Source of the DNA: a virus
Direction: 5' to 3' (one strand)
Virus record (IMG/VR): IMGVR_UViG_3300008117_006924
Span: 1 to 21,666 of that record
Length of the DNA: 21,666 nucleotides
Shown here: positions 5,106 through 18,278 of the stretch, in pieces
Position numbering within the stretch: the stretch's first letter is position 1
Layout: each line of letters starts with the position of its first letter
Notes under the pieces: model-generated
Database searches by the model: none
The model's input: the letters and a program-made list of their open reading frames with translations, nothing else
Told to the model about the DNA's origin: nothing
Made by a program: the position numbers and the translations under genes

Positions 5106-5108
5106 TGA

Positions 5109-5348: not shown

Positions 5349-5730
5349 GTGGTTTCGCAGTCTTCTCCATTAATTTTAAAATGTCAGCACTATTATATAT
5401 CATACGATCATTAACCATATTTAAATCACGAAGATTGCCGAAATAATATGATCTAGGATCAGCACTTAGCCAACCGATCAGCATTGCAGATTCTTCATCG
5501 CAGTCAGCATTGAATAGGATTAAATCTGTTTTTGCGATCTTATCAAACAACCACTGTTTAGAATCTCCCCGATTCCACACATAGTTTATAACAGAGTGGG
5601 GCAATGTGCTCTGCATCAATGCCTGAGAAATAGTCTGAGACTGTGGCTGAGAGAGATTGACGTGAGCAATTCTGATACCGCTCTGCAATATGTCGTCTGG
5701 AGCAGTGACTACTAAAATTCTGTCAGTCAT
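5341..5730 (-). CDS. Conserved phage protein of unknown function
   Basis: A 129-residue soluble protein, not recognised. The sequence alternates predicted strands and helices (RILVVTAPDDIL at the start, TDLILFNADCDEESAMLIGWLSA in the middle, YNSADILKLMEK at the end), as in a small alpha/beta Rossmann-like or toprim-like fold, with no membrane segment. Its ATG overlaps the stop of the upstream membrane protein gene by 4 nt and its end overlaps the bS21 gene by 8 nt, so the three are one operon. No function can be assigned from the sequence. Confidence 0.8.
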   Translation of the reverse strand: MTDRILVVTAPDDILQSGIRIAHVNLSQPQSQTISQALMQSTLPHSVINYVWNRGDSKQWLFDKIAKTDLILFNADCDEESAMLIGWLSADPRSYYFGNLRDLNMVNDRMIYNSADILKLMEKTAKPHG

Positions 5731-7271
5731 TTTTTAATTTCTTGTATTCTCTGCCAAAGAGTGCGCTCATTCTGTTCAGCGTTTTGTGTGTAGGTTTCTT
5801 TGATTTTTTTTATCTGATTGCCTTGTTCGTCATTTTCCATCCAGCTCACAGATTTATCGGGGTCAATTTTTTCTTCAGCCCATTCTTTGGCCTTCACCGA
5901 TTCTTCTAGGCTAGGATTTTCTTCTGCCCATTTTTTAGCTTCTGTAACCGCGTCTTGAAAATCTGCCTGGGGTTTGAGATAGTCTTCCCACGGCAGATGA
6001 TCTATGACTCCTTTTTCTAAGAGGCGTCTTTGTAATTTTAAACTCATCGCAGGATGATCATGTTTCCAAGCAGTCATGGCCTGCTTTTCATTTTGGGGAG
6101 CAGATTCCATCAATTCTTGATCTTCTTGTTCACGTTCTTCCACCACAGCTCTCTCTGCTTCAGCGATCATCTGATTCCACTCTTCTAGGCCAGCTTTCTT
6201 TTCTGCTTCAACATGATCACTTTCGTCTAGACCTGCATCATCTTTGACAGTCACATCTTCATAGCCGGGATGATATGGCGCCTCTTGAACCTTGTCTTGA
6301 TATTTTATGTTTTCAAAAAGATCCATTTGGTTAGGAGCAGCCTTCACTGGGAACGGCCAATATGGACTGGCCCGTAAATGTGGGGGATCTATTCTTTCTG
6401 TCTCTTCTGGTTCGGTATCATCAGTTGTGACAGTAGGCGTGTCAACGGACACACTGCTTATAGGGCTGCCACCCTCCGTGGTTTCTTCTTCCTGTTTGCG
6501 GAACCATTGAAACGAATATTGGCTGGCTAACAACAATATAACTGCCAATGGATCAAATACAATAACAATAATAATGATTACCCAAGTTACTGCTTTTTCC
6601 AAAACATTGGCATCCGGATTATCGCCGTATATAAAATTGGCAATATATTTTATTGGCCCGACTTCTGCTTCGACTTTACGCACCTCAGCGGCAATAGGCG
6701 CCCTTTCTTCAGATAGTTGACTAATAACTTTCTGTTCGGCAGTGATCTCAGATTGGAGACGAGCACGTTCTTTTTGTTGTCCTCTCCGAATTGCCACTGC
6801 TTTATCAGCACCCTTTTCATCTTGGCTTCGGCCCATAACTTGGTCCACAGCTTCGTCCATCTGTCTTAGTGCTTTACGATTGGCTTCTATATTGTCTTTA
6901 GCAGTCTTAATTTTTTCATCGTAGATCGCAATCCTACTTTGCACATCACCCGATACTAGACTTTGATCACTGTGAGCTTTTGATAAAAATCCAAAGATAC
7001 CCATGCTGGTTATCAACATGAGAATGGCAATAGCGGCTAACAGATATGCCCGTATAAAATATGGTGCTCGACTCCAATTTTGTTTTAGCCATACGGTGCC
7101 GGCTAGTTTGCTGATTTCTAAGGCCACACCCATAACAATAATGGGAATAACTGCTGCCGAGAATATTGCCATCAGTCCAGCCACGCTGTACCAAATGGCC
7201 ACAGCAGATACAGTCAACCCGCTGAGCAAGGCCGACCAGGCAATGAATTTATCGCTTGTATGGATTCTCAT
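5727..7271 (-). CDS. Large coiled-coil membrane protein
   Basis: A 514-residue protein (516 if the TTG at 7277 is used; I prefer ATG 7271, with no strong ribosome site for either). Hydrophobic segments lie near residues 10-30, 33-52 and 72-96, and a fourth, AVTWVIIIIVIVFDPLAVILLLA, lies near 225-247. Between them residues 115-210 form a Lys/Glu-rich coiled coil (EEKIKTAKDNIEANRK-like heptads). The C-terminal half after 260 is hydrophilic, acidic and repetitive (AEE, EEW, KEWAEEK). Motifs such as GVALEISKLAGTVWLKQNW are familiar from an uncharacterised membrane protein common in marine T4-type phages. Function is unknown. An envelope or virion-associated role is possible. Confidence 0.85.
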   Translation of the reverse strand: MRIHTSDKFIAWSALLSGLTVSAVAIWYSVAGLMAIFSAAVIPIIVMGVALEISKLAGTVWLKQNWSRAPYFIRAYLLAAIAILMLITSMGIFGFLSKAHSDQSLVSGDVQSRIAIYDEKIKTAKDNIEANRKALRQMDEAVDQVMGRSQDEKGADKAVAIRRGQQKERARLQSEITAEQKVISQLSEERAPIAAEVRKVEAEVGPIKYIANFIYGDNPDANVLEKAVTWVIIIIVIVFDPLAVILLLASQYSFQWFRKQEEETTEGGSPISSVSVDTPTVTTDDTEPEETERIDPPHLRASPYWPFPVKAAPNQMDLFENIKYQDKVQEAPYHPGYEDVTVKDDAGLDESDHVEAEKKAGLEEWNQMIAEAERAVVEEREQEDQELMESAPQNEKQAMTAWKHDHPAMSLKLQRRLLEKGVIDHLPWEDYLKPQADFQDAVTEAKKWAEENPSLEESVKAKEWAEEKIDPDKSVSWMENDEQGNQIKKIKETYTQNAEQNERTLWQRIQEIKK

Positions 7272-7281
7272 GAACAAGTAT

Positions 7282-7710
7282 TTAGTTGGACCATGTCCAA
7301 CGATTATCTACGTCGTTAAAACATGCAGTGGCTCGCATAGTTTTTTCTACATTGTAGGCAATGGCCTGGATGTGTAATCTACGGCAATAGCCTGCACCAC
7401 TGGGCCATGTAGCGGATGTCATGGCCATACCGCTGGCATCTTTCTTGTACCAACGCACCACTTCACCATTGTCTGCATACATCACTGCATGATGAATGGC
7501 CTGATTGTAGGCGGTCTTTTGTTCATCATCTAGAGTCTTGAACCAACCAAAAGTTAGATCCGCTAACCTATTGGACCAAGCCGAGGTACTGTAATTAAAG
7601 AACCTGGGATTCTCTATATCATTGGCCAGTGCCGAACTACTGGCCGTGAGTATCAACAATTTCCCAACTACCATCAGGCAGCTGACAACTGAGCGCACGG
7701 TATTGAACAT
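7282..7710 (-). CDS. Exported protein with signal peptide, unknown function
   Basis: About 142 residues. The start is decided by a ribosome site, AAAGGTGG, 5-6 nt before ATG 7710, rather than the in-frame GTG at 7719. The N-terminus MFNTVRSVVSCLMVVGKLLI followed by LTASSSALA is a signal peptide with an Ala-x-Ala cleavage site before NDIE. The mature part contains DEQKTAYNQAIHHAVMYADNG, YCRRLHIQAIAY and ACFNDVDNRWTW, a pattern like the C-terminal domain of small bacterial surface antigens (a paired-Cys sheet ending D-x-x-W). It overlaps the preceding lipoprotein gene by 74 nt, unusual even here. Likely periplasmic. Role unknown. Confidence 0.75.
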   Translation of the reverse strand: MFNTVRSVVSCLMVVGKLLILTASSSALANDIENPRFFNYSTSAWSNRLADLTFGWFKTLDDEQKTAYNQAIHHAVMYADNGEVVRWYKKDASGMAMTSATWPSGAGYCRRLHIQAIAYNVEKTMRATACFNDVDNRWTWSN

Positions 7711-7960
7711 CGGTTCCACCTTTCTTCATCCATCCATTAAAGTATCCACAGTTAGAACCTATTCCAACTCTGGCCACAGTGAGTCGCTTGACCTGATCGT
7801 CTGAGCATTCCACAGTGGTACGGCTATTAACCCTCTCACCATTTTCTGTGACAATGGTTTGATTGGTGTAGCAGTACTGTGGTTTCTGTGCCTGTGTCTT
7901 TGGCGCTGAGCCACAGCCTACCAACAGCGCCAATGCAGTGCCGGCTATGATCAATTTCAT
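7637..7960 (-). CDS. Small lipoprotein with surface-antigen-like domain
   Basis: A 107-residue lipoprotein: MKLIIAGTALALLVGC gives a short signal peptide and a lipobox (LLVG-Cys16), followed by a Ser/Pro/Gln linker. The rest includes YCYTNQTIV, a Cys-rich core, and a C-terminal ALSCQLPDGSWEIVD resembling the 'ACrqpDGsW' end of bacterial 17-kDa-type surface antigens. The ATG overlaps the upstream lipoprotein stop by 4 nt. With its two neighbours it forms a trio of exported proteins just after the lysis genes. An outer-membrane spanin-like or superinfection role is possible but unproven. Confidence 0.78.
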   Translation of the reverse strand: MKLIIAGTALALLVGCGSAPKTQAQKPQYCYTNQTIVTENGERVNSRTTVECSDDQVKRLTVARVGIGSNCGYFNGWMKKGGTDVQYRALSCQLPDGSWEIVDTHGQ

Positions 7961-8442
7961 TGGCGTGCCAATTTTTGTTCTTTGGCTTCAGCGATCAGCT
8001 GATCGAACACAGGCTTTGGCATTTTCAACCTTACAAAGGTATAGTGGCGGCCCTGCATAGTGAAATGTCCAACTTCACGCTGAAGATGCTCACGGATAGT
8101 AGTATCACGCACCACATATGAGATCTTTGTGTAGGTAGATTTCTTGTCGTCTTTGAACTCAATACGTGTTTCGGAGTTAACTTCGGAGTTTATACGTTTG
8201 GCAAAGTTATTCATAGCGATGGCATACATCTGTTCTTCAGCGGCCTGTGCATGAATTGATTCACCTGCACCGCATGCATATGCCATGTCTTTTGACCACC
8301 AAAACCAACCCTCAGTTCCTGCCTGAGCACAACTCTGATACCAACTGGGTTGAGCATAGGATTTGCGATCCTCGATACTCTTCATTGACGAACAACCAGA
8401 AATGGCTGCTGCCATCAAACCAACTGCTAGTGCCTTTTTCAT
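7957..8442 (-). CDS. LPP20-like lipoprotein
   Basis: A 161-residue lipoprotein with signal peptide MKKALAVGLMAAAISGC and lipobox Cys17. The mature domain has EQMYAIAMNNFAKRINSEVNS, an amphipathic helix followed by strands (TRIEFKDDKKSTYTKISYVV) and a closing helix, the layout of LPP20-family proteins of Gram-negative outer membranes. GAAAGG lies 7 nt before the ATG, and a near-consensus sigma70 promoter lies at 8477-8505. It leads an operon of three exported proteins. Role in infection is unknown. Modification of the host envelope or superinfection exclusion fit the context. Confidence 0.8.
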   Translation of the reverse strand: MKKALAVGLMAAAISGCSSMKSIEDRKSYAQPSWYQSCAQAGTEGWFWWSKDMAYACGAGESIHAQAAEEQMYAIAMNNFAKRINSEVNSETRIEFKDDKKSTYTKISYVVRDTTIREHLQREVGHFTMQGRHYTFVRLKMPKPVFDQLIAEAKEQKLARQ

Positions 8443-8476
8443 AAAAACCTTTCTGTGTGTAAATTAGGACAGTATA

Positions 8477-8505
8477 AGTATAGCACCATGGCCGACCTAA
8501 GTCAA
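8477..8505 (-). promoter_or_regulatory. Sigma70-type promoter for the lipoprotein operon
   Basis: TTGACT (8505-8500), 17-bp spacer, TATACT (8482-8477), followed by a second TATACT 6 nt further on. It sits in the gap between the holin-like gene and the LPP20-like gene, about 35 nt before that start. A host-type promoter here suggests the exported proteins are made early, unlike the lysis genes upstream. Confidence 0.78.
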
Positions 8506-8522
8506 CCACAGCGGTTGCCAAA

Positions 8523-8825
8523 TTACTTGAAGAAGATCAATGCCATCATCGCTGCCTGCACAATGAATCCCACTCCAATTGTCACTATATTCAGCATGTC
8601 TTTTTGGATAGCTGCTTTAACAAAGAGCAGTGTCAGACCTGTCCAAACTAATAGCACCAAATCTACTCCCGGTAATCGGTCTGTAAGCCCTGCCATAACT
8701 GCTAGCAGACTGGGGATTGTTGAGGCATGCAGTACTATTGCTGCCAACCATCCAAATGTTTCTGCTGAAATAACAGAAATTTTAGTTTGGATGAATTCTT
8801 TGAGTTGCTGGATATCTGTCATCAT
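8523..8825 (-). CDS. Holin-like small membrane protein
   Basis: A 100-residue protein with three hydrophobic segments, about residues 22-42, 50-69 and 76-98, a short hydrophilic N-terminus (TDIQQLKEFIQTK) and a C-terminal Lys. Size, topology and the position directly after the cell-wall hydrolase (ATGA overlap of 4 nt) fit a class I holin that would time lysis. There is no sequence motif that proves this, and small three-span phage membrane proteins of other function exist. Confidence 0.6.
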   Translation of the reverse strand: MMTDIQQLKEFIQTKISVISAETFGWLAAIVLHASTIPSLLAVMAGLTDRLPGVDLVLLVWTGLTLLFVKAAIQKDMLNIVTIGVGFIVQAAMMALIFFK

Positions 8826-9376
8826 AGTTTAACTTCCTTTGCTCGATAAAAAATGTGTTGCCCTATTTGTCCAACTTTTGGAAGATTCCATCTTGGATTA
8901 ACATAGGTGGCATGATAATACAAAGCATCTTTGAGAACAGATAATCTAAATCCTTCCAAAAGAACTTTCTTAGCGACTTCATAGCTTTCATTGTAGGCTT
9001 CCTTGTTTATGGGACGATTTTTATGTATAGAATCGCAGTACCATGAGAACTGGCACACTACTCTTTCCATGACAACATTTTTTTGATACACGACTCCGCA
9101 GACGTCCTTGCCAAATACACCAGCTTGAACACGATTAAGAGTCACCTGAGCCACTGCCACTTTACCTTCGAACGGCTCATATCCTGCTTCTCGATAAATG
9201 TTGATAGCTAGGCAATCCAATTGTTGCTCTCGGGTTTTAATTGACACAACATCTCGACTATAATATCCATTTTTCTCTTTGAGACCTGCAAATTTAGTCG
9301 AGGTCAACGTTTGAACTAACACAACTACTAAAATAAATCCTACAATGTAGGATATGATACGAATTGACTTTTCCAT
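8822..9376 (-). CDS. SleB-type cell-wall hydrolase (endolysin)
   Basis: About 184 residues. The start is set by AGGAGG 5 nt upstream of ATG 9376; the in-frame ATG at 9391 lies before that ribosome site and is unlikely. A single N-terminal membrane segment (IRIISYIVGFILVVVLVQTL, residues 5-24) is followed by a hydrolase_2/SleB catalytic domain: LAINIYREAGYEPFEGKVAV with the likely catalytic Glu63, VAQVTLNRV, then CQFSWYCDS and a late YYHATYV. SleB-family enzymes are muramidases or transglycosylases of peptidoglycan. The N-terminal anchor suggests a membrane-tethered or signal-arrest-release endolysin acting with the adjacent holin-like protein. Confidence 0.85.
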   Translation of the reverse strand: MEKSIRIISYIVGFILVVVLVQTLTSTKFAGLKEKNGYYSRDVVSIKTREQQLDCLAINIYREAGYEPFEGKVAVAQVTLNRVQAGVFGKDVCGVVYQKNVVMERVVCQFSWYCDSIHKNRPINKEAYNESYEVAKKVLLEGFRLSVLKDALYYHATYVNPRWNLPKVGQIGQHIFYRAKEVKL

Positions 9377-9666
9377 AAGTCCTCCTTTCATTTAGTGTGC
9401 GATATTCTGCACATTACATTAAGGGAGTTAACTTCACGAGGCTCTGAAAGAACCCTACTTTCGTGTAGTTGTCTCCATTGGACGCATGATCTCATAACTC
9501 ATGTGCCTTTGGCGACCCTTGGCGTCCCGAAAATACGGGTTTCTCATTGGCCAAGACCCGCGGATCTGTTTCAGCTTTTGGCATACTTTGGATCTACTAT
9601 CTCAGTTTCTTTGCGAAACGTTTAATATATAGTCGATATCGTGAATTCATATACAAAAACCGGTGA
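9377..9666 (-). other. 290-bp gene-free, structure-rich interval
   Basis: No convincing gene in 290 bp. Read on the minus strand it holds several inverted repeats. CTTGGC/GCCAAG (about 9512-9554) encloses a CCCG/CGGG hairpin, CTAC/GTAG lies near 9452-9466, GGTTC/GAGCC near 9439-9453, and GTTTC/GAAAC near 9605-9619. A TGTGC/GCACA pair (about 9396-9413) lies just before the endolysin ribosome site. Two overlapping 30-codon frames exist without ribosome sites. It is either a long structured 5' leader of the endolysin gene or a small noncoding RNA. It resembles no RNA family I know. Confidence 0.4.
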
Positions 9667-10056
9667 TTATCGACGCATTTTGGATATATCCACAGCTTCT
9701 TCGTCTGAAAACACAGGTACCGCATTTGACTTGTGCATGGTAGCGATACCCTTGACCATTGTGCCAGTATATACTTTTGGTGCAGGCATTGTACAAGCAC
9801 CTCCGGAAAATGGAAGGCTGGGTATTTTGGCAGCACTCGAACCTCGATATGATGCAGGCGGGGGGTTCCAGACTTCGCTGCTCATAGCACGTTTTCGCTT
9901 GCCTTCTGTCTGCTCTATACCCTGCCTTCTCAGAAGATCTTTCCAAGATTCGTCTAATTCACGGGCTTTTCTAGCATGTTCTGCCGATGCAAATTTTTTC
10001 TTGCCTCGTTTCTTGCCCGTGGTAGATAACCACGGACCTTCTAAGTGCATACTCAA
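9667..10056 (-). CDS. Conserved phage protein, basic N-terminus
   Basis: Up to 129 residues from TTG 10056 (GGAG lies 8 nt upstream) or 127 from ATG 10050. The TTG has the better ribosome spacing. The N-terminal part is strongly basic (STTGKKRGKKKFASAEHARKAREL), suggesting nucleic-acid contact. The C-terminal part ends VKGIATMHKSNAVPVFSDEEAVDISKMRR, a tail I associate with an uncharacterised protein conserved in aquatic T4-type phages. No enzyme motif is seen. It has its own promoter (10090-10118) fused to the terminator of the preceding operon. Confidence 0.8.
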   Translation of the reverse strand: MSMHLEGPWLSTTGKKRGKKKFASAEHARKARELDESWKDLLRRQGIEQTEGKRKRAMSSEVWNPPPASYRGSSAAKIPSLPFSGGACTMPAPKVYTGTMVKGIATMHKSNAVPVFSDEEAVDISKMRR

Positions 10057-10089
10057 AATTTATCTCCAAAAAAATTAAACTACTCTATG

Positions 10090-10118
10090 AGTTTAACACC
10101 TCTACAAAAAAAAGTCAA
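10090..10118 (-). promoter_or_regulatory. Sigma70-type promoter overlapping a terminator T-run
   Basis: TTGACT (10118-10113), 17-bp spacer, TAAACT (10095-10090). The first two T's of the -35 are the end of the T-run of the terminator at 10124-10141. It drives the small conserved gene starting at 10056. Confidence 0.65.
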
Positions 10119-10141
10119 AAAAAATCCCACCAAAGTGGGAT
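10117..10141 (-). terminator. Rho-independent terminator after kinase fusion gene
   Basis: A 7-bp stem ATCCCAC/GTGGGAT with loop TTTG, followed on the minus strand by a run of eight T's, 17 nt after the stop of the kinase-nucleotidyltransferase gene. Confidence 0.88.
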
Positions 10142-10158
10142 AAAATCAAAAAGGATTG

Positions 10159-10992
10159 TTAAAGACCCATTTCTTTTCGAATTTTTGTTGCCGAAATATC
10201 AGTGATTGACAAATCAAATGTTTCTTGTTCGATTTTATAACCAACATCACGACCATAAGTGATATTGACGATATTAGGAACAACCTGTATTTCATATTGT
10301 CCTTGATAAATGGGGTCTAGATCTCTTTTTATGTATTGCATTACCTGATCCAGAGCAAAAGGATTAGTGCCTTGCCAGCCCTGGCAATCACGTATTTGTA
10401 TAACAACTTGTCCTGTTTTCGCTATAGCACGTTCAAACAGCGCCCGATGGCCTGCATGCCAAGGTTGCCATCTACCTAGCATTTGAACAGTTTCTTGCCG
10501 CCAATTAAACACAGGTCTTCGACGATTTTCTAAAATATGTTCGCCTACAAACTCTGCCCACTTCTCACTATTTTGTTCTGTAATGCGGAAGTCATAAACT
10601 TCGGGTGGCACAAACATTTTATTTGTGTCTTCAAAACGCCCTTTATCTATAGTATCCATCCAAATAGTCCAATCCGCTTTGTAGTTGTTTCGCATTTCTA
10701 CCAATGGGGCCACGAAATCCACAATACAATAATCAGTATCGGCTTTGTCTGCCAAATCTCTCATGCGTTGGCTTTGTCTAATCCGGCCATCTAAACTGAA
10801 GTCCCAGTCATTGAACTGTCTGCGAACTTCATCAGCATTTAGCCATCTCACTGTAACCATCGAGTCATTTAAGGGGCGTAATGAATTTTCATTTATAGGT
10901 TTAAAATTATTTTCTAAATATTTTTTTAGTTGCTTGGCAAGATATGTTTTCCCTGAACCAGGTAATCCCATTATTAAAATTCTTTTAGTCAT
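10159..10992 (-). CDS. APS-kinase-like / nucleotidyltransferase fusion
   Basis: A 277-residue two-domain enzyme. Residues 1-150 are a P-loop kinase resembling adenylylsulfate kinase (CysC): Walker A GLPGSGKT (9-16), LNADEVRRQF (51-60) like the CysC DGDxxR segment, FSLDGRIRQSQRMRDLA (66-82), and a late VDFVAPLVEMRNNY. Residues 165-277 are an HxGH-type nucleotidyltransferase: GRWQPWHAGH (173-182) and ISATKIR (266-272), as in NMN adenylyltransferase and cytidylyltransferases. The kinase-then-transferase order recalls PAPS synthases, but the C-terminal domain is much smaller than an ATP sulfurylase. It overlaps the sulfotransferase-like gene by 4 nt, which favours a PAPS-supply role. NMN or CTP-based chemistry is the alternative. 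Confidence 0.8.
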   Translation of the reverse strand: MTKRILIMGLPGSGKTYLAKQLKKYLENNFKPINENSLRPLNDSMVTVRWLNADEVRRQFNDWDFSLDGRIRQSQRMRDLADKADTDYCIVDFVAPLVEMRNNYKADWTIWMDTIDKGRFEDTNKMFVPPEVYDFRITEQNSEKWAEFVGEHILENRRRPVFNWRQETVQMLGRWQPWHAGHRALFERAIAKTGQVVIQIRDCQGWQGTNPFALDQVMQYIKRDLDPIYQGQYEIQVVPNIVNITYGRDVGYKIEQETFDLSITDISATKIRKEMGL

Positions 10993-11570
10993 AATTTATA
11001 TTTTTCCTTTTCTGTAGTGAACTGATAATTGATTTGCAGTTCTTGTACCCAATCTAACACTTCTTTTTTGTTAATGACTTTGTCCCATACCGGTCCATAT
11101 CCAAGATAATGCTTATCAGAATCAGATGTCCAATCGTCGAATCCTAGAATCTGTCCGGTTCTCTGCCAATCAGTAATTATATCTTCATAAATCAGCCAAT
11201 GTATTTTTTTAAATTTCGGCCATTCTTTGATATTAAAAATTCTTTCATGAAAAAATAAAATGCCATGTGCAAATGTAAAGAAATATGTTCTTGGAATGAC
11301 AAATGGTGCTAAAGCGATATCTTTAAATTTGTGGGTCTGTTTAGTTAGCATTATTGTATAGAAACTCAATACCTGAGCTAACATGTCTTTTCTCGTACAA
11401 ATTACCACAGTCCACTGTTCTGGCTGTTCTTGGATTTCAGGCCATATAATAGGCATTTCTAAATTTTCTACGATTCTGGGCTTGCCTAATCTGTCCAACG
11501 AGCTTTCAATATGAGCTTTTAGACTATTGCTGGCTGATCTTCCAGGGCTAACTACAATATATTTTTCCAT
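10989..11570 (-). CDS. Sulfotransferase-like protein
   Basis: A 193-residue protein with features of the P-loop-like sulfotransferase fold. YIVVSPGRSASNSL (residues 4-17) matches the 5'-phosphosulfate loop, VVICTRKDMLAQVLSFY (about 54-70) matches the 3'-phosphate-binding Arg/Ser segment, and a late WLIYEDI is like the 'l.YEdl' motif. It is shorter than typical cellular enzymes but normal for phage ones. The ATG overlap with the downstream APS-kinase-like gene implies a two-gene unit that makes and uses PAPS. Substrate is unknown (glycan, host surface or virion component). Its promoter abuts an upstream terminator, and a 15-bp palindrome lies in its leader. Confidence 0.72.
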   Translation of the reverse strand: MEKYIVVSPGRSASNSLKAHIESSLDRLGKPRIVENLEMPIIWPEIQEQPEQWTVVICTRKDMLAQVLSFYTIMLTKQTHKFKDIALAPFVIPRTYFFTFAHGILFFHERIFNIKEWPKFKKIHWLIYEDIITDWQRTGQILGFDDWTSDSDKHYLGYGPVWDKVINKKEVLDWVQELQINYQFTTEKEKYKL

Positions 11571-11596
11571 ATAAATTCCAAAATAGAAACAATGAT

Positions 11597-11611
11597 AGAT
11601 AAGTCTTATCT
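11597..11611. promoter_or_regulatory. 15-bp palindrome, candidate operator
   Basis: AGATAAG-T-CTTATCT is a perfect 7-1-7 inverted repeat immediately downstream of the predicted start point of the sulfotransferase promoter, a typical place for a repressor operator. It could equally form a small hairpin in the leader. Confidence 0.5.
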
Positions 11612-11616
11612 TGTCT

Positions 11617-11646
11617 AATATATATCGAAAAGATCAGCTAGGTCAA
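11617..11646 (-). promoter_or_regulatory. Sigma70-type promoter for sulfotransferase operon
   Basis: TTGACC (11646-11641), 18-bp spacer, TATATT (11622-11617); a 16-bp spaced TATATA is also possible. The -35 begins right after the terminator stem at 11647-11673. Confidence 0.65.
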
Positions 11647-11673
11647 GGAAAAGCGGCGATAGGCCGCTTTTCC
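11647..11673 (-). terminator. Terminator after pqqA
   Basis: An 11-bp perfect stem GGAAAAGCGGC/GCCGCTTTTCC with a 5-nt loop lies 12 nt after the pqqA stop. The T's lie within the 3' arm, so it could act in both directions. Its GCGGC core resembles the terminator at 13852-13878. Confidence 0.8.
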
Positions 11674-11685
11674 AACGTTACAAAA

Positions 11686-11757
11686 TTACCTATTCATAAC
11701 ATACATAGTGATTTCAAAACCAAAACGCATGTCGGTTGCTGTTGGTGTGGTCCACAT
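11686..11757 (-). CDS. pqqA: PqqA, precursor peptide of the cofactor PQQ
   Basis: A 23-codon gene too short for most gene finders. The peptide begins MWTTPTATDMR and ends FGFEITMYVMNR, matching PqqA in length, in the Met-Trp opening, in the D-x-R-x-GFE core and, decisively, in the E-x-x-x-Y motif (Glu15, Tyr19). These two residues are cross-linked by the radical SAM enzyme PqqE and become the whole PQQ molecule. A consensus ribosome site (AAGGAGG, 11762-11768) precedes the ATG, and a terminator follows 12 nt after the stop. No pqqB, C, D or E is in the window, so the peptide must feed the host pathway (PqqD/E). PQQ serves methanol, glucose and alcohol dehydrogenases in the periplasm. The TATAAT at 11815-11820 is a likely -10 though its -35 is weak. 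I am confident of the family, less so of the physiological purpose. Confidence 0.9.
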   Translation of the reverse strand: MWTTPTATDMRFGFEITMYVMNR

Positions 11758-11761
11758 AATA

Positions 11762-11768
11762 TCCTCCT
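11762..11768 (-). promoter_or_regulatory. Consensus ribosome binding site of pqqA
   Basis: AAGGAGG, full anti-16S complementarity, 4-5 nt plus ATT before the pqqA ATG. It is the strongest ribosome site in the window beside that of the endolysin, and it argues that this 23-codon frame is translated. Confidence 0.85.
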
Positions 11769-11814
11769 TTGTTGATAAAATTACACACTGCATCGTGCTA
11801 GTATGTATCATTAT

Positions 11815-11845
11815 TATATGGCAGAAACGTTGTAAAACGTATAGT
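11815..11845 (-). promoter_or_regulatory. Possible pqqA promoter with inverted repeat
   Basis: A TATAAT hexamer lies about 60 nt upstream of pqqA on the minus strand, with a poor -35. Just upstream is ACGTT-TTAC-AACGT, a 5-bp-arm inverted repeat where an activator or repressor could bind, and further up AATGATATT occurs twice about 23 nt apart. This fills the roughly 125-bp gap between the SGNH hydrolase gene and pqqA. Confidence 0.4.
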
Positions 11846-11882
11846 GAATATCATTAAATAACAGTAGCAAATATCATTATGG

Positions 11883-12296
11883 TCATTTGGTTTGAGCTGC
11901 CAATTCTCTATATCCGCGACCTGTGGGATGTATGCCGTCGGCGCTCATGTGTGCTTTTGGTCTGGATAAAATTGTATCGCCGTATTCTTTGGCCAACATA
12001 ACTATAGCATCATGTGCAAGAGGTTTTCTATCACGGCCCGGATCGATCCAAAATACCCTATCAGCGGTAATATTTTTACGCATGTTCTGTAATTCCCAAA
12101 TACTTCTCACACCAGCATGATCATTAGCACCTAGACTGATAATCACTGTCTTGGCAGGACTCTTGCTGGCTTTGGCAAGATAGTCTCTGTTCCACTGCTG
12201 GGAGTTCCAACCACTTCGGGCGTAGCTCACACACTCGGGCCGTGCCTGTGCAGTTCCAACTGCGATGCTGTCTCCAATAATCAAACATTCTAACAT
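11883..12296 (-). CDS. SGNH/GDSL-type hydrolase
   Basis: A 137-residue compact SGNH hydrolase (esterase, acetylhydrolase or lipase type). Block I is LIIGDSIAVG (nucleophile Ser10), block II Gly29, block III SLGANDH (Asn58), and block V ADGIHPTGRGY with Asp120 and His123, so all four conserved residues are present. There is no signal peptide, so it acts in the cytoplasm or is carried in the virion. Its TTGAGGATT ribosome site lies in a 12-nt gap after the preceding small gene. It may deacetylate sugars of surface polysaccharide or modify small esters. The substrate cannot be told. Confidence 0.85.
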   Translation of the reverse strand: MLECLIIGDSIAVGTAQARPECVSYARSGWNSQQWNRDYLAKASKSPAKTVIISLGANDHAGVRSIWELQNMRKNITADRVFWIDPGRDRKPLAHDAIVMLAKEYGDTILSRPKAHMSADGIHPTGRGYRELAAQTK

Positions 12297-12308
12297 ACAA
12301 TCCTCAAA

Positions 12309-12611
12309 TTAAGATAATTTTAACACTGTCACCAAGGCTTCTTGTTCATTCCAAAACGCCCAATACCAACGTTGATGAGTATCATTGTCTAAAAATATTT
12401 CAGCACAACGATACCCTAATTTTTTTATTTCTGTATTGGTTGATTCCCAGGCAGATGGAACAACAGTCCGACTTTTTCTTCTACTGCGATCTATAGGATC
12501 CAGCACAAGAACCACTGCAGGAGGATCAGATTCATAACTTCTGTGTTGCCTCGTTTTCTCGTAGTAGGGAATGTGCCGATTCAACCAATCATTCCAGGCA
12601 ACAATCTGCAC
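12309..12611 (-). CDS. Small protein of unknown function
   Basis: A 100-residue protein that starts at GTG 12611 preceded by AGGAATAGG. It is Trp/Arg-rich (WNDWLNRHIPYYEKTRQHR near the start, HQRWYWAFWNEQEAL near the end), with a central PPAVVLVLDPIDRSRRKSRTVV. There is no membrane segment or signal peptide. It lies between rubrerythrin and the SGNH hydrolase with gaps of 12 nt on each side, probably in the same operon. I do not recognise the family. Confidence 0.7.
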   Translation of the reverse strand: MQIVAWNDWLNRHIPYYEKTRQHRSYESDPPAVVLVLDPIDRSRRKSRTVVPSAWESTNTEIKKLGYRCAEIFLDNDTHQRWYWAFWNEQEALVTVLKLS

Positions 12612-12623
12612 ATCCTATTCCTA

Positions 12624-13061
12624 TTACTGATTAGCCTTATGAGCTTCTAAAGTTCTTGTGAACTTATTAGCATGGCTGCGTTCTGCCTTTGCCAAGGTCT
12701 CAAACCAATCCGCAATCTCGTCAAAACCTTCTTCACGAGCTGTTTTTGCCATACCGGGATACATATCGGTGTACTCATGGGTCTCACCAGCGATCGCTGA
12801 TTCTAGAGCTTCTGCTGTGGTCTTGGCCGGCATGCCTGTTCCTGGATCACCTGCCCCTCCGTCAATCAGATATTCCATATGACCGTGTGCGTGGCCTGTT
12901 TCTCCCTCTGCAGTAGAACGGAATACAGATGCAACATCATTGTCTCCGTTAACATCTGCTAGGTTTGCGAAATACAAATAACGGCGATTGGCCTGTGATT
13001 CACCAGCAAATGCCTCTTTCAAGTTTTCTTCGGTACGTGTACCTTTTACAGTTTGTGACAT
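12624..13061 (-). CDS. Rubrerythrin, erythrin domain only
   Basis: A 145-residue diiron four-helix-bundle protein of the rubrerythrin family, which reduces hydrogen peroxide. Ligand motifs are clear: [18 protein letters not shown] on helix 1, [18 protein letters not shown] on helix 2, [21 protein letters not shown] on helix 3 (listed as [10 protein letters not shown] and MYPGMAKTA), and [14 protein letters not shown] on helix 4. The C-terminal rubredoxin domain of classic rubrerythrin is absent, so an external electron donor is needed. GGAG lies 6 nt before the ATG. Its promoter has TTGATC/TATAAT with an inverted repeat in the spacer. It is likely a peroxide shield during infection and heads an operon with two small genes. 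Confidence 0.92.
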
Positions 13062-13084
13062 AGGGTCTCCTTGTTTGTCAATGT

Positions 13085-13120
13085 ATGTGTATATTATATA
13101 TCCTATTAAGATAGGAGATC
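13085..13120 (-). promoter_or_regulatory. Rubrerythrin promoter with internal operator-like repeat
   Basis: TTGATC, 18-bp spacer, consensus TATAAT on the minus strand (about 13120-13091). The spacer contains the inverted repeat TCCTAT-CTTA-ATAGGA, an ideal position for a repressor or redox-responsive regulator to block RNA polymerase. Confidence 0.65.
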
Positions 13121-13173
13121 AATAGTTTTTTTGTGAATATTTTTTTATGGCGATAATAGATTTTGTCAATATC

Positions 13174-13201
13174 AAAAAAGAAAGGAGCCGAAGCTCCTTT
13201 C
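13174..13201 (-). terminator. Terminator after the outer-membrane protein gene
   Basis: A 9-bp stem GAAAGGAGC/GCTCCTTTC with a TTCG tetraloop, followed by six T's on the minus strand, 19 nt after the stop codon. A textbook intrinsic terminator. Confidence 0.93.
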
Positions 13202-13219
13202 TATGTGCTAATCTCTAGA

Positions 13220-13777
13220 TTAGAACTTGAAACCAACGCTGATATTAGTAGCATTGTAATCGCTGTCACCACGAACACTGTCGTAGCCTAGGCCAACGAA
13301 ATAATTCTTACTTAGAGCGTGCTCTGCACTCAGGCGATATGTGCGTGTGGTGTCAGCATTGACGCTGTCCATTGCTGCACGATAACGGTAACCTGCTTTA
13401 ACTGAAAGCGATGGAGTTACAGCATACTTGATGCCTGGCTCTACACTGTAGTAGCTGTAGTTAGTTGCAGTCTTGAACTTCTCACCAACACCTGCACGAC
13501 CGTATACGCTGAGACCAGTTGCACCGACTGGCTGTGTAGCTGTTAGACCGGCTTCTAAACGTGTGTCGCTGAGATTGTTACTGTTGTCAGTCTTTTGACG
13601 CAAGCTGAAATCAGCTTTGAACATTTGGTTAATGTCTGTGCCCATGGTAACTTTAGTTGCGCGAGCATCTGCGGTACTATCTACCCCATCACGGCTGCTA
13701 TACTCAACAGCACCAAACCCGCCAGCAAAGGCAGTACTTGCGGCGCTCAAAGCGGCCACTACGATAAACTTCTTCAT
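13220..13777 (-). CDS. Outer-membrane beta-barrel protein
   Basis: A 185-residue protein with signal peptide MKKFIVVAALSAASTAFA, cleaved before GGFG. The mature part alternates short amphipathic strands with aromatic girdles (GAVEYSSRD, FKADFSLRQKT, LSVYGRAGVG, SVEPGIKYAV, LSVKAGYRYRA, YFVGLGYDSV) and ends ISVGFKF, a C-terminal Phe as recognised by the BAM machinery. About eight strands can be counted, an OmpA/OmpW-like small barrel. A host-type promoter (13821-13850), a strong ribosome site and its own terminator make it an autonomous unit. Phage outer-membrane proteins may mask receptors from competing phages. A transport role is the alternative. Acquired from a host is plausible. Confidence 0.88.
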   Translation of the reverse strand: MKKFIVVAALSAASTAFAGGFGAVEYSSRDGVDSTADARATKVTMGTDINQMFKADFSLRQKTDNSNNLSDTRLEAGLTATQPVGATGLSVYGRAGVGEKFKTATNYSYYSVEPGIKYAVTPSLSVKAGYRYRAAMDSVNADTTRTYRLSAEHALSKNYFVGLGYDSVRGDSDYNATNISVGFKF

Positions 13778-13783
13778 TGATAT

Positions 13784-13800
13784 TTCCTTTTAAAAGTAAA
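13784..13800 (-). promoter_or_regulatory. Leader/RBS of the OMP gene, related to dnaK and hsp20 leaders
   Basis: TTTACTTTTAAAAGGAAA just before the ATG differs only slightly from the TTACTTTAAAAGGAGA leaders of dnaK and hsp20, suggesting a common translation-initiation cassette. Confidence 0.5.
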
Positions 13801-13820
13801 TGACTTGTATGTCAATGTTT

Positions 13821-13850
13821 AGTATATAGTATTTCTGCTATGCATGTCAA
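13821..13850 (-). promoter_or_regulatory. Sigma70-type promoter for OMP, abutting tmRNA terminator
   Basis: Consensus TTGACA (13850-13845), 18-bp spacer, TATACT (13826-13821). The -35 follows directly on the T-run of the tmRNA terminator. A second TTGACA lies about 30 nt downstream with a TAAAAG 17 nt on. Confidence 0.8.
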
Positions 13851-13851
13851 G

Positions 13852-13878
13852 AAAAAGCGGCTACGAATAGCCGCTTTT
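13852..13878 (-). terminator. Terminator of the tmRNA transcript
   Basis: The stem AAAAGCGGCTA/TAGCCGCTTTTT with a TTCG loop ends in T's on the minus strand, about 45 nt beyond the tag stop codon. Confidence 0.9.
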
Positions 13879-13879
13879 G

Positions 13880-14225
13880 GTGGTTTAGGTTACAAGGTAT
13901 GTCCTACCCCGGACCGCTGTTTTTTAGGCAGCTAGGGCAAATCTGCTTTCATTAGCAGCACCGCGAACGGTGTTACCAGTGAAGCTCATTGCACTGAAGT
14001 CAAATGTATCAATGTATCTGCGTTTGCATTTACGAGTTTTGCTTGATTTACAGTCATCGCCTACTGTGTTGCCGTCTCTATTATCTCACCCTGTCGAAAC
14101 CATGGCTCGCCCAACTAAGCACACTCGGCACTAAAGCCTTGCTACCAGAATACTCGGTTCGGAGTATGCTTAGGTGGACGAGGCGGGAGTCGAACCCGCG
14201 TCCAGAATGCCTTCACTTTGAAGGG
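13880..14225 (-). ncRNA. ssrA: Circularly permuted (two-piece) tmRNA
   Basis: Transfer-messenger RNA that rescues stalled ribosomes, in permuted order. Reading the minus strand, the 3' acceptor piece comes first: T-arm GCGGG-TTCGACT-CCCGC (about 14184-14200) then CTCGTCC-ACC (14182-14173). After a linker comes the 5' end GGGCGAGCCATGGTTTCGAC (14112 down), the near-universal tmRNA start. GGGCGAG pairs with CTCGTCC as a 7-bp acceptor stem with one G-U. The linker folds by CTAAGCATACTC against GAGTGTGCTTAG, as expected of an excised loop. CCA is not fully encoded (ACC then T). The tag frame ends NESRFALAA-TAA at 13924; the resume codon may be GCA 13992 (22 residues) or GCT 13959 (11 residues). 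Downstream, GGTCC/GGAC and GGTA/TACC interleave as an H-type pseudoknot (13896-13915). Confidence in tmRNA is high, in exact ends moderate. Confidence 0.93.
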
Positions 14226-14239
14226 ATTACAACAATTCC

Positions 14240-14308
14240 TTACATGAAAACTTCAATCAATACAAATACAACAATAAGAATTGCTACAATGAATTGATAG
14301 GCTTTCAT
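14240..14308 (-). CDS. Possible 22-residue membrane mini-protein
   Basis: ATG 14308 to TAA 14240 encodes MKAYQF followed by an uninterrupted hydrophobic stretch (IVAILIVVFVLIEVFM), a single predicted membrane span. It lies between the cold-shock gene and the tmRNA. There is no clear ribosome site and the frame is tiny, so it could be chance in AT-rich sequence. The clean span and basic N-terminus make it worth listing. Confidence 0.35.
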   Translation of the reverse strand: MKAYQFIVAILIVVFVLIEVFM

Positions 14309-14315
14309 ATTTATG
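14308..14315 (-). promoter_or_regulatory. Late-promoter-like CATAAATA after the cold-shock gene
   Basis: One mismatch from the T4-type late octamer TATAAATA. It overlaps the stop codon of the cold-shock gene and lies about 85 nt upstream of the tmRNA acceptor piece, so it could drive the tmRNA late in infection. Confidence 0.45.
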
Positions 14316-14514
14316 CAGGCTGAATGTTGCTGGCCTGCTGTCCTTTCTGACCCTGAGTTACTTCAAACCTTACACTCTGTCCTTCTTGTAGGCTTTTGAA
14401 GCCACTTGAATTAATTTGTGAAAAGTGTGCAAATAAGTCTGCGCCACCATCGTCCGGCGTAATAAAGCCAAAACCTTTGGCGTCGTTAAACCATTTTACT
14501 TTTCCTGTTACCAT
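14311..14514 (-). CDS. Cold-shock domain protein (CspA type)
   Basis: A 67-residue single cold-shock domain, an RNA-binding OB fold that melts mRNA secondary structure. RNP1 is KGFGFITPD (residues 13-21) and RNP2 is LFAHFSQI (27-34). It opens [10 protein letters not shown] and closes [15 protein letters not shown], typical of bacterial CspA/E. The AAGGAAATC ribosome site lies upstream, with a TTAAATAA element about 35 nt upstream. It is the first gene of a short stretch that leads to the tmRNA. With bS21 and tmRNA it suggests control of translation. Confidence 0.96.
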
Positions 14515-14557
14515 TTTACTTGATTTCCTTGTTGTTAAAAGACTCTGTCTCTGTATG

Positions 14558-14968
14558 TTATTTAATCCAACCTATGCGTTTTCCCGCAGCTATTCGCCGA
14601 TCATATTCCTCGACCGAGCTAGGGAATCTCCAGGCCCAAACTGCCACGCACAACATAAACAGTGCTGTATATATTATACCACGAACAGGAACTGAAGTCA
14701 ACCACATAATTACCAAACTGGTAGTCATCATGACCAGCATGAAGTACTTCATTTTCTGTGGGAACACACGCCTAGTATTCCAATTATGTAGGAACGGTCC
14801 AAACAACTGGTGATTATAGATCCAACGATGCATGCGTTCTGAACCTTTACTAAAACAATAGGCAGCAAACACCACAAATATACTGTATGGGATGCCCGGA
14901 GTGATAACTCCTATGTAGGCCATGCCTAGACTTAGAAATCCCAGCGCATTCCAAACAAGTTTTTTCAT
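14558..14968 (-). CDS. DUF454 (YbaN-like) inner-membrane protein
   Basis: A 136-residue membrane protein of the DUF454/YbaN family. Segments: [34 protein letters not shown] near residues 10-43 (two spans around the family's Pro-Gly-x-Pro turn), [20 protein letters not shown] (45-64), the conserved amphipathic loop, and two further spans at about 75-93 and 97-114. The family is widespread in Proteobacteria with no known function. It appears occasionally in large phages. The start codon overlaps the M15 peptidase stop by 1 nt (TAATG). Confidence 0.88.
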
Positions 14969-15933
14969 TATGCAGCCACTACTCTGTTAGGTACTGCAGC
15001 CACGATGATGTCTTGATGAAGATTAGGAGTAAACTTGCCTCCAGCAGCACCATTTAGCGTGGCTAGTTTATTAATGGGTTTCGAAACCCTCACAGATTGA
15101 CCACCATAAGGTAAGTTTGGAATAGCATAACTGATATGTATCCACACAGTTTTGCTTGGTAGATATTCTAACAGCAGTTGATCATACGGAATGTTTTTTT
15201 CTATCCATGTGGCAATTTCGAAATAGCTATGTGCTCCTACACCGCGGAACTGCAGATCTGCTGCCTGTCCCGTACCGTGTTGTGCCTGACCCTTTCCTTC
15301 TCTATAGGTGTTGGTAATCAACATATTAGGATATTTGGCCTTTATGGGTTCTAGAATATTGAGAGCCAGGGCGGCCAAATTATTCACGATGTTTTGAGGC
15401 GGTAGTCCCTTGACATTGTCAGCTAACTGAGCTATAGTTCTAGGAAAGGTAACATTTTTTATCGCTTGTCCTAGGGTGAATCCCGACGGTGTTAATTTAG
15501 TAGCAAATGTAATGTCACCCGAAACAGCTGCGCTAGGCTTATCTGCTGGTCTATTTTTACTGGGCGCCACTCCAGGTCCTTTTGCAGTGGGCGTTGTGGT
15601 TAAAGTTTTATGTTCTGCAGCAGTGATACGCCCTTCGGCGAGGAATCTATCAGCTTCTCTTTTACCTGCGGTGTTGTCTTCATCACCTTCCACGTTTTTT
15701 ACAGCAGCTACCCCAGTGACCTTTGGCACAGCCGCAGAGGCGAATGTTCCTGGTGTTGTGGCTGCATTGTACAGCGCAATTTCCACACCATTGGCAAACA
15801 CATTGTAGGGATTATATAAAGGTTCCTGCCGAGGCATCGTACCTGCTGGGTGAGAGTGATTATCAAGAGTATCACTTCCTGTACCGCCGCTAGGTCCGAC
15901 GCTGGTCGATTGTGGTGTTGGTGAAGTTGCCAT
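14968..15933 (-). CDS. Virion-type protein with M15 peptidase domain
   Basis: A 321-residue protein. The first 150 residues are low-complexity (Ala/Thr/Pro/Gly-rich, with GGTGSDTLDNHSHPAG) as in phage structural or tail proteins. The C-terminal part has the zinc peptidase M15 signature: TNTYREG (208-214), QHGTGQAADLQ (218-228) with His219 and Asp226 as ligands, and VWIHISY (263-269) with His266, matching D-Ala-D-Ala or L-Ala-D-Glu peptidases. It is probably a baseplate or tail-spike-associated protein that cuts cell-wall peptides during entry, distinct from the SleB endolysin used at lysis. There is no clear ribosome site at the ATG. Confidence 0.8.
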   Translation of the reverse strand: MATSPTPQSTSVGPSGGTGSDTLDNHSHPAGTMPRQEPLYNPYNVFANGVEIALYNAATTPGTFASAAVPKVTGVAAVKNVEGDEDNTAGKREADRFLAEGRITAAEHKTLTTTPTAKGPGVAPSKNRPADKPSAAVSGDITFATKLTPSGFTLGQAIKNVTFPRTIAQLADNVKGLPPQNIVNNLAALALNILEPIKAKYPNMLITNTYREGKGQAQHGTGQAADLQFRGVGAHSYFEIATWIEKNIPYDQLLLEYLPSKTVWIHISYAIPNLPYGGQSVRVSKPINKLATLNGAAGGKFTPNLHQDIIVAAVPNRVVAA

Positions 15934-15941
15934 GCTTGTAT

Positions 15942-16295
15942 TTAAGCCAAAGCAATGCCTGTGGTACTTTGAACGAACTGTTTGGCAAAAGTTTCGTCGG
16001 TGGCTTCTGCTACAGTAACGGTGGTTTTTGCCAGCTTGACTTCCTTGTCAGGATGCACTGTAAACAGATAGGGCATAAGTCCTGGGCCACGTTCGCCTAT
16101 GGCTATGACCATAGGTCTATGTAATTTGTAGTGAGTGGCAGTTTCTTCAATCAGCTTGGCCACTAATTCCTCTCCTGAGGTCAGTTTGAAAGTTGCTACT
16201 TCTCCAACTGCAAATTCTATGCCTCTTTGTGTGAGCAGAGCCTTGGCCTGATCACAGTAGGGACAGTTATACTTGCTCCATACCACAGCTTTCAT
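15942..16295 (-). CDS. Truncated glutaredoxin fused to Sm-like domain
   Basis: A 117-residue chimera. Residues 1-32 are the start of a glutaredoxin: AVVWSKYNCPYCDQAKALL with redox pair Cys11/Cys14, then RGIEF, i.e. the first strand, helix and second strand only. The rest of the glutaredoxin, including the cis-Pro and the GSH-binding GG, is missing. From about residue 34 the sequence becomes FKLTSGEELVAKLIEETATHYKLHRPMVIA, a small beta-rich Sm-like fold found as a stand-alone protein in marine phages. The ribosome site GAAAGGAAAAC supports the start, and reading frame is intact throughout. Either an in-frame deletion fused two neighbours or the protein is a genuine CxxC-tagged Sm-like protein. 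Confidence 0.75.
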   Translation of the reverse strand: MKAVVWSKYNCPYCDQAKALLTQRGIEFAVGEVATFKLTSGEELVAKLIEETATHYKLHRPMVIAIGERGPGLMPYLFTVHPDKEVKLAKTTVTVAEATDETFAKQFVQSTTGIALA

Positions 16296-16315
16296 TTTGT
16301 TTTCCTTTCAATATT

Positions 16316-16885
16316 TTATCTTTCTAACAAATGGTTATAATCATTTACAATTTTATCCCAAGTAGTTAAGTGCACAGGAGATCTTGCACTGATAGTCCAT
16401 CGATAAGAAGACCTATTAATCATTGCATGAGGATGATCAACACGAATAAGTATTAGTTGATTTTTCTCCATAACACATCTATCTATTTCTTGTAATTGAC
16501 TTATAGGCCAAGACAAGTAACTCTCCCCATCTGAATTAATAGGCATAAATGCGCCAGATTGTTGTGGTTTATCGTACCAAATCATTTCGCCGGGTTCACC
16601 ACTAATAACCCAATTAAATCCACAGTTTACAATTTCAGCAGGATTGCCTGCAAGATCTACATGGGCAAAATCATCAATAAGACATGGTCGTCTATAAAAA
16701 AGTATGCCTATTGCTATAGGAATACCTAGAGTCTCCATGGCTTCTAACCATTCTTGACTGAAAATATTTTCTCTTTCGATAGGCCAAACTTGTCTGTCGT
16801 CTATATCATTTGGAGTGGGAAATTTCCAGTCGTTTGATATTGCCTTAGAAACATCTATATTGAGTCGATACCAGCATTTTTTCAT
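16316..16885 (-). CDS. 2OG-Fe(II) oxygenase-like protein
   Basis: A 189-residue protein with the ligand pattern of 2-oxoglutarate/Fe(II) dioxygenases in a double-stranded beta-helix: FAHVDLAG (His75-x-Asp77), a later His in VDHPHAM (151-153), and YRWTISAR (161-168) with an Arg about 10 residues on, as used to bind 2-oxoglutarate. The middle shows beta-strand-rich stretches NCGFNWVISGEPGEMIWYD. Such enzymes in phages hydroxylate bases, peptides or small molecules. The substrate is unknown. Base composition is AT-richer than the flanks. It follows the radical SAM fragments by 1 nt. Confidence 0.62.
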   Translation of the reverse strand: MKKCWYRLNIDVSKAISNDWKFPTPNDIDDRQVWPIERENIFSQEWLEAMETLGIPIAIGILFYRRPCLIDDFAHVDLAGNPAEIVNCGFNWVISGEPGEMIWYDKPQQSGAFMPINSDGESYLSWPISQLQEIDRCVMEKNQLILIRVDHPHAMINRSSYRWTISARSPVHLTTWDKIVNDYNHLLER

Positions 16886-16886
16886 G

Positions 16887-17309
16887 TTACATATTTAACT
16901 TACTATGTTTGTAATTCTCAATCATTTCGTAATTAAGATGAAGCTTTGGAGAACCTTTTTTGTAGTCGTAAGATAATAGCTCACGTATTGACTTATCAGG
17001 AGCTGTGTAGAAAAACTTTTGAATAGGATATCTGATATCGTTTTCAAGAAATTTATAATACATCAGCTCTACCCATTCTGCCATTCTTCCCCAATTCGTG
17101 TGTTTGTTTTTCCACATTACATTATTTGGGCGGAATCCAGTAAGGTGATTGTAAGTGTCATATACTTCGAGTTTTTTTAGATACTCTTTTTGCTCTTCTT
17201 CTGTAGCAGGTTCATAACCGTATTTGGCATAGTCCATGGTCATCTTTGAATTTTGGTTTAAATGGTCAAAGGCATTTTTCTTTGGGATATCAAGTACATT
17301 TGCTACCAC
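16887..17309 (-). pseudogene. C-terminal part of a split radical SAM protein
   Basis: A 140-residue open frame from GTG 17309, overlapping the end of the upstream frame within ATGTGGTAG. Segments DIPKKNAF, MTMDYAKYGYEPATEEEQ and WVELMYYKFLEN resemble the C-terminal tail of B12-domain radical SAM proteins of large phages, which follow the enzyme barrel. Read with the upstream gene it looks like the end of the same protein with roughly a third of the barrel lost and a frame change at the junction. It could still be translated by coupling as a separate subunit. I infer disruption from family architecture, not from a visible stop in a known gene. Confidence 0.5.
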
Positions 17310-18268
17310 ATTCTCTCATCTATTAACCCTTGTTGTAATATTTCCGGATTCATTCCTTTACCAATGACCTTTCCCGATTCGTGGTTAAAAGTTTCAATGC
17401 CGTACAGATGAGAGACAACCTGCATTCTTATCAGTTCATCCCATTCCTTTTGCCCACGCTTCACAAGTAGGTCAGGACGAATAAACGCCCAGAAAAAAGG
17501 TTGAAAGTCCAGCTGCTGTACGACGTCAGCAAATTTTGTAATTTTTTCAGTGCGGTCATTGAATGTTTCGTCGCTGATCATGTATCGAGTAATACCGAAT
17601 CGATCATACGCATCTTTGATTTGTCTTTCAAAACTATCGGTGTCTCTAGTCCAATCTCCCTTGACTCCGATCATTGGATGATTACAATAGTCGCAGACAA
17701 ACTTACAACCCCTGCTGAATTCTATTGAAATCCATTCATATGATTGAAGGAAATCACGATCCTCATATATAATAACAGGATCTCTCCAAGGAGCGGCATC
17801 CCATCCGCCTTGTGCAACTTTTCTACCTTTCACGGTTGTAAACTCTATGGCCTCACCGGCGTCAAACAAATACTTTAATAGTTTTATAAAGATTGTTTCT
17901 GCATACCCGGTGATTTGATAGTCAATATGTTTTGTATTGATTTCTGCAAAAGTTTGAGAACCGTAGATGATTAATAGATTTGGATGATTTTCTTTAATCC
18001 ATGCGGCGGTTTGTTCAGCTAATTCTGGCCATTGCAGGAATAACGATCCAAACCCTATGAACTTCATATCCCCATCGATTCTTGATATCAGAAGTTGTTT
18101 TATTTCTTCAAATGTCCAGAACCGGAAAAAATCTATTACTTCTATATCCCATCCATGCTTACGTATCTCTGTGGCTATTCGATGACCTCCACCTGATCTA
18201 CCTGCCTCATCTTCTCTAGCAATAAGAAACAACAGAGCCTTATACTTACTTTTTGCAATAATTTTCAT
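17303..18268 (-). CDS. Radical SAM protein, probably C-terminally truncated
   Basis: A 321-residue protein. Residues 1-135 form a Rossmann-like domain of the B12-binding type (RSGGGHRIATEIRKHGWDIEVIDFF, cited as SGGGHRIATEIRK and WDIEVIDFF), though the cobalamin DxHxxG motif is not evident. The radical SAM cluster motif CxxxCxxC is Cys188, Cys192, Cys195 in SRGCKFVCDYC, followed by YMISDETFNDR (the 'GE/SDE' strand) and HLYGIETFNHESGKVIGKGMNPE. The frame then stops, well before the barrel would be complete. It is not PqqE, because there is no SPASM cysteine cluster. Related phage proteins of unknown substrate are longer. The following frame carries what looks like the missing tail. Confidence 0.75.
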   Translation of the reverse strand: MKIIAKSKYKALLFLIAREDEAGRSGGGHRIATEIRKHGWDIEVIDFFRFWTFEEIKQLLISRIDGDMKFIGFGSLFLQWPELAEQTAAWIKENHPNLLIIYGSQTFAEINTKHIDYQITGYAETIFIKLLKYLFDAGEAIEFTTVKGRKVAQGGWDAAPWRDPVIIYEDRDFLQSYEWISIEFSRGCKFVCDYCNHPMIGVKGDWTRDTDSFERQIKDAYDRFGITRYMISDETFNDRTEKITKFADVVQQLDFQPFFWAFIRPDLLVKRGQKEWDELIRMQVVSHLYGIETFNHESGKVIGKGMNPEILQQGLIDERMW

Positions 18269-18278
18269 GGTCTGGTTT

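Follow-up and report, generated by a model that had tools for sequence, protein, structure and literature searches.

The occurrence of pqqA in a phage has been described by Coutinho et al. in 2020 (PMC7678222), who found PqqA together with a methanol dehydrogenase in the Lake Baikal methylophage VP_266 and proposed for it the same role as is considered below. A single case was seen, and P19250A was stated to be without the auxiliary genes described there. Viral pqqA is also listed from sediments (PMC13188868), and the view of the preliminary description of the present DNA, that no phage pqqA was established, is contradicted by both reports. In the bacterial pathway, PqqE cross-links the Glu and the Tyr of PqqD-bound PqqA, and a protease, PqqB and PqqC finish PQQ (PMC10906245), so that PqqA is a consumable and the enzymes turn over. 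Overexpression of single pqq genes in Gluconobacter, pqqA included, raised PQQ according to work cited in PMC7936290, and a cell extract is described as converting added PqqA peptide to PQQ in work cited in PMC9851590. Methylophilaceae have 3 to 12 pqqA genes and a single pqqBCDE set, additional pqqA copies apart from pqqBCDE being normal in this family (PMC4109929).

The window, i.e. the whole stretch of DNA that was analysed, is a fragment recorded in IMG/VR with a length of 21,666 bases. The features of its pqqA region and its tmRNA gene are as follows.

11686 to 11757, minus strand: pqqA, 23 codons plus stop, encoding MWTTPTATDMRFGFEITMYVMNR; PF08042, TIGR02107; silent-only divergence in four relatives (L250-L253)
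11763 to 11770, minus strand: Shine-Dalgarno AAAGGAGG, read in the sequence, 5 nt from the pqqA ATG; invariant in the four relatives
11647 to 11673, minus strand: terminator-like hairpin 3' of the pqqA stop; RNA fold z -4.64, stem kept in L251-L253
11807 to 11836, minus strand: weak candidate sigma-70-like promoter upstream of pqqA; 9/12 consensus match, alone no better than chance
10989 to 11570, minus strand: downstream neighbour, 193 aa, the query that found L250-L253
11883 to 12296, minus strand: upstream neighbour, GDSL/SGNH hydrolase (PF13472, E 8.8e-8)
13952 to 14285, minus strand: tmRNA gene (RF01850 beta_tmRNA, 132 bits; ARAGORN tag ANADTLIHLTSVQ)

The pqqA frame runs on the minus strand from the ATG at 11757 to the last base of the TAA at 11686. 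Its product exceeds the cut-offs of both the Pfam profile PF08042 (38.7 bits, E 9.3e-10; cut-off 21.1) and the NCBIfam equivalog TIGR02107 (37.7 bits, E 1.3e-9; cut-off 20), and a six-frame profile search of the whole record returned a PqqA match with an E of 2.1e-10. The PqqA residues W2, P5, R11 and G13 are all found together with Glu15-x3-Tyr19, and the core of the peptide, GFEITMY, contains E15 and Y19, i.e. a Glu and a Tyr four residues apart. Searches of PHROG families and of the PDB with the peptide gave zero matches. By its profile scores and core residues, the frame is a genuine full-length PqqA, in agreement with the complete 23-codon gene of the preliminary description, whose interval (11686-11768) spans the gene and most of its ribosome-binding site. 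The consensus ribosome site that it had placed ahead of pqqA was likewise recovered, and the terminator that it had placed behind the gene was recovered in part: a stable hairpin composed of a stem GGAAAAGCGGC, a loop CTATC and a stem GCCGCTTTTCC does follow the stop codon, and in L251-L253 the loop is different and the stem is maintained through a compensatory pair change, but this hairpin was not called in a consensus terminator scan of the window and is therefore termed terminator-like only. The downstream 193-aa protein belongs to no Pfam, PHROG or NCBIfam family; it looks sulfotransferase-like, as judged by eye only.

When the 193-aa protein was used as a query, four more IMG/VR contigs (L250-L253) were retrieved in which it is 94-99% identical and in which pqqA is flanked by the same genes and encodes an identical peptide. 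Their pqqA genes differ from that of the window by two third-position silent changes and no others, and this silent-only divergence argues that the peptide is not a chance frame. Both the frame and its ribosome-binding site, on whose presence in related phages the preliminary description had made its reading depend, are kept in all four. One of the four, G011, is 68 kb long and ca. 90% identical to the window across 17 kb, and a megablast of the window against phage records gave zero matches. Proteins of phage-family RNR, exonuclease and kinase are encoded in the window, as are bS21, MazG, HSP70, ClpS and a cell-wall hydrolase. Judged from the relatives with the same arrangement and from the cultured phage genomes described below, the pqqA locus is viral, as had been claimed.

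The window is also rich in host-type genes such as those for DnaK, an IscU-like protein, SOD and rubrerythrin. Its segment from 12624 to 21445 comprises rubrerythrin, Fe/Mn superoxide dismutase, the IscU-like scaffold protein, glutaredoxin, a class II aldolase and a B12-type radical SAM protein. A heme oxygenase gene (863-1423, minus strand) is directly followed by a gene for a bilin reductase related to PcyA (211-891, minus strand; NF002760, E 3e-22, below cut-off), and the two would probably form a bilin module carried by a phage that is probably betaproteobacterial. A 516-aa protein (5727-7277, minus strand) has a weak tetraspanin-like N-terminus, and a similar protein occurs in the virus G004 (L639:1046-2332) considered below. 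With regard to the host, a DNA search with the tmRNA gene was rejected as a means of assignment, Methylophilaceae giving short matches only. The tmRNA is of the betaproteobacterial type, but the peptide is identical at only 18/22 positions to the closest Methylophilaceae PqqA sampled; a Methylophilales host is likely for such a phage and, from tmRNA and peptide type, may be that of the window.

A tblastn of the window peptide against 50,697 phage records, a search suggested in the preliminary description, matched 12 records, nine of which are Methylophilales phages: P19250A, Venkman, MEP301, MEP401, MEP402 and four Melnitz variants. The remaining three are a podovirus from the environment, ctXG6705, and two contigs that bear the label Acinetobacter phage. 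These two, Acinetobacter phage MD-2021a, were discarded: the contig that was examined (CAKLQF020000010.1) looks like bacterial chromosome, with ppk and a radical SAM gene in addition to pqqB, pqqC and pqqD. A second query with a PqqA of the Methylorubrum type found no further phages. Taxonomy also names the Methylophilales phages MEP431-434, HIM624-A and phiMB624-A, some of which may lack the gene; the nine are the records found by tblastn. P19250A carries pqqA at 28085-28153, contrary to the statement in PMC7678222. With the contaminants set aside, ten phage records have a match, and the gene is annotated as PqqA in none of them; in Melnitz and ctXG6705 a "hypothetical protein" that overlaps pqqA is called on the opposite strand. 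The publications that describe MEP301, MEP401/402, Venkman and Melnitz make no mention of PqqA either. The published isolate annotations missed the gene because it has only 23 codons, as had been anticipated from its length.

Comparison of the terminases of P19250A, Venkman, MEP301 and MEP402 revealed no significant mutual similarity, and Melnitz belongs to the Kyanoviridae, with a genome of 141 kb, which suggests that, where terminases were compared, the pqqA-bearing Methylophilales phages represent several unrelated lineages. The only DNA that the window has in common with P19250A, Venkman and MEP301 is pqqA itself (76 nt at 83%, 75 nt at 80% and 89 nt at 78% identity, respectively). In Venkman and ctXG6705, pqqA lies inside a common block of 85 nt with 90.6% identity, a situation that would fit an exchange of pqqA in the form of a small cassette. 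Among long and possibly incomplete contigs, from whatever host, that have terminases related to those of P19250A, Venkman or MEP402, 9/20 carry pqqA, and the gene would accordingly not be universal in those lineages.

A scan of IMG/VR with a degenerate DNA motif for G-F-E-x-T-M-Y detected at least 120 contigs with pqqA, and all 120 matches listed contain a complete short PqqA frame. Among the matches listed, 92/127 viral and isolate loci have the Methylophilaceae-like ending YV[MC]N[KR], 13/127 resemble Burkholderiales PqqA and 9/127 (L013, L021, L023, L029, L036, L040, L048, L056 and L063) form a viral subtype, RLGFE[VI]TMYF, that is distinct from the Methylophilaceae type. Also among the matches listed, the dN/dS of pqqA was 0.118 in viruses vs 0.128 in cells for the whole gene, and with the scan motif left out it was 0.196 vs 0.200; no variation was seen at P5 and R11. 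A Shine-Dalgarno of at least 4 nt matching AAGGAGG precedes 118/119 viral pqqA listed with enough upstream sequence vs 10% of random positions. These values point to viral pqqA as a small coding gene under purifying selection, to the same degree as cellular pqqA.

The preliminary description had also proposed to look for pqqBCDE elsewhere in the genome. None of pqqB, C, D and E was found in the 120 viral pqqA loci listed, and pqqB was absent from 20 larger viral records, whereas 77/120 cellular pqqA loci retrieved with the scan motif do contain pqqB. The usual companions of PqqA in the same genome are therefore missing from the viral loci, an association that is not strictly defining. On the host side, 149/150 Methylophilaceae genomes contain pqqA, in 1-12 copies each, and 57/60 contain pqqE above the cut-off.

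A link to methanol oxidation is found in the 72-kb virus G004 (IMGVR_UViG_3300025120_009955), as follows.

L636 (G004:30000-47000), 3990 to 12790: stretch with xoxF, formate dehydrogenase alpha, pqqA and a SoxYZ fusion

The PQQ methanol dehydrogenase of G004 has the XoxF-type Ln motif DYD and its best solved-structure match is XoxF, and the formate dehydrogenase alpha matches TIGR01591 with an E of 2.9e-266. These genes lie in one stretch of ca. 12 kb flanked by the phage families phrog_37870 and phrog_35576, both of which are also found in G011, the 68-kb relative of the window, so that the two viruses probably belong to one broad group. This agrees with the Lake Baikal populations VP_139 and VP_266 (PMC7678222). 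Methanol dehydrogenase occurs in only 1/34 pqqA-carrying records tested, and most of these viruses would therefore depend on the enzyme of the host.

It is likely, in our view, that phage pqqA acts as an auxiliary metabolic gene which would feed the PqqB-E of the host and sustain methanol dehydrogenase; the gene resides in viral genomes, namely those of cultured phages and of the window relatives, rather than in cellular contamination. From the phage genome, pqqA would be transcribed as a short and probably monocistronic unit that carries a strong ribosome site. Host PqqD would bind the phage PqqA and host PqqE would cross-link Glu15 and Tyr19, after which host protease, PqqB and PqqC would complete PQQ. 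Respiration through the PQQ-dependent methanol dehydrogenase (XoxF/MxaF) could in this way be kept going as host transcription declines. Each PQQ would use up one PqqA and PqqB-E are reusable catalysts, so that one 23-codon gene would be the cheapest means to keep PQQ. A point against such a supply is that the hosts already have 1-12 pqqA copies and the precursor need not be limiting.

The same abundance of copies, easily acquired, would suit a stray host pqqA gained by recombination and carried without function for the phage, as would the lack of the gene in 11/20 of the related, possibly incomplete long contigs. Such passive cargo should drift towards a dN/dS near 1, which is not seen, and viral constraint equals that of cellular pqqA; it would also leave unexplained the own ribosome-binding site of nearly every viral pqqA listed, the silent-only divergence of the window relatives and the presence of the gene in unrelated phage lineages infecting the same hosts. 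We regard this explanation as very unlikely. PqqD could also be titrated by a short substrate analogue, in which case phage PqqA would occupy PqqD/PqqE and thereby reduce the PQQ of the host or exclude superinfecting phages; however, the phage peptide retains Glu15, Tyr19 and the rest of the core, so that it should be a productive and not a dead-end substrate, and G004 brings XoxF beside pqqA, which raises the need for PQQ. This decoy or brake is even less probable. There is still less in favour of a phage radical-SAM enzyme that would turn PqqA into a product other than PQQ: the window does encode a radical SAM protein of the B12 type (17303-18268), with two more in G011, but none has a PqqE match among the NCBIfam matches listed, the small pqqA-bearing isolates have no annotated radical SAM gene and the constraint on the peptide is that of an ordinary PqqA. 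Least probable of all is a cellular chimera or island at the pqqA locus, which the host-type genes of the window might suggest but which is at odds with the arrangement repeated in four contigs, with the long stretch conserved in G011, with the phage-family RNR, exonuclease and kinase, and with the cultured phage genomes that contain pqqA.

Supply of the PQQ precursor is the reading retained here, and phages of methanol-using bacteria probably feed the PQQ supply of their host in infection. A broader proposal, which we hold to be somewhat better than even, is that phages whose hosts are PQQ-dependent methylotrophs have in pqqA a host-linked signature gene, repeatedly gained or swapped by unrelated phages, carried in every Methylophilales phage record found and annotated in none, and lying in some viruses within a module for methanol oxidation that comprises XoxF, formate dehydrogenase and pqqA. 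If so, phages would control the cofactor, and not just the enzyme, through its consumable peptide precursor. PQQ enzymes underlie methanol oxidation in oceans and lakes, and phages of the main aquatic methylotrophs, if they do supply the PQQ precursor, would influence one-carbon turnover. Cultured phage-host pairs allow testing (Venkman and Melnitz with H5P1, MEP401/402 with FZCC0133 and P19250A with IMCC19250), and the PqqA peptide is a possible marker of host for uncultured phages. The concept of a phage pqqA had been put forward before (PMC7678222); what appears to be new is how general it is and that it was overlooked in the cultured methylophages considered here.

The window PqqA compares most directly with that of Methylophilaceae (PF08042 / TIGR02107), with which it shares a length of 23 aa, the same core, Glu15-x3-Tyr19 and the occurrence of solitary copies; it differs in lying on a phage contig without pqqB-E and in D9, I16 and R23, which depart from the common host peptide. 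The Baikal populations VP_266 and VP_139, likened to the window by their published description, include a T4-like methylophage that carries PqqA; their class II aldolase and RNR also occur in the window, and their methanol dehydrogenase has its counterpart in G004. Host-linked auxiliary genes of phages include psbA of cyanophages and pmoC of methanotroph phages. Like these, phage pqqA stands for a single component of host energy metabolism, limiting or rapidly turned over, that the phages of that host carry; unlike these, its product would be a 23-residue consumable cofactor precursor and not an enzyme subunit.
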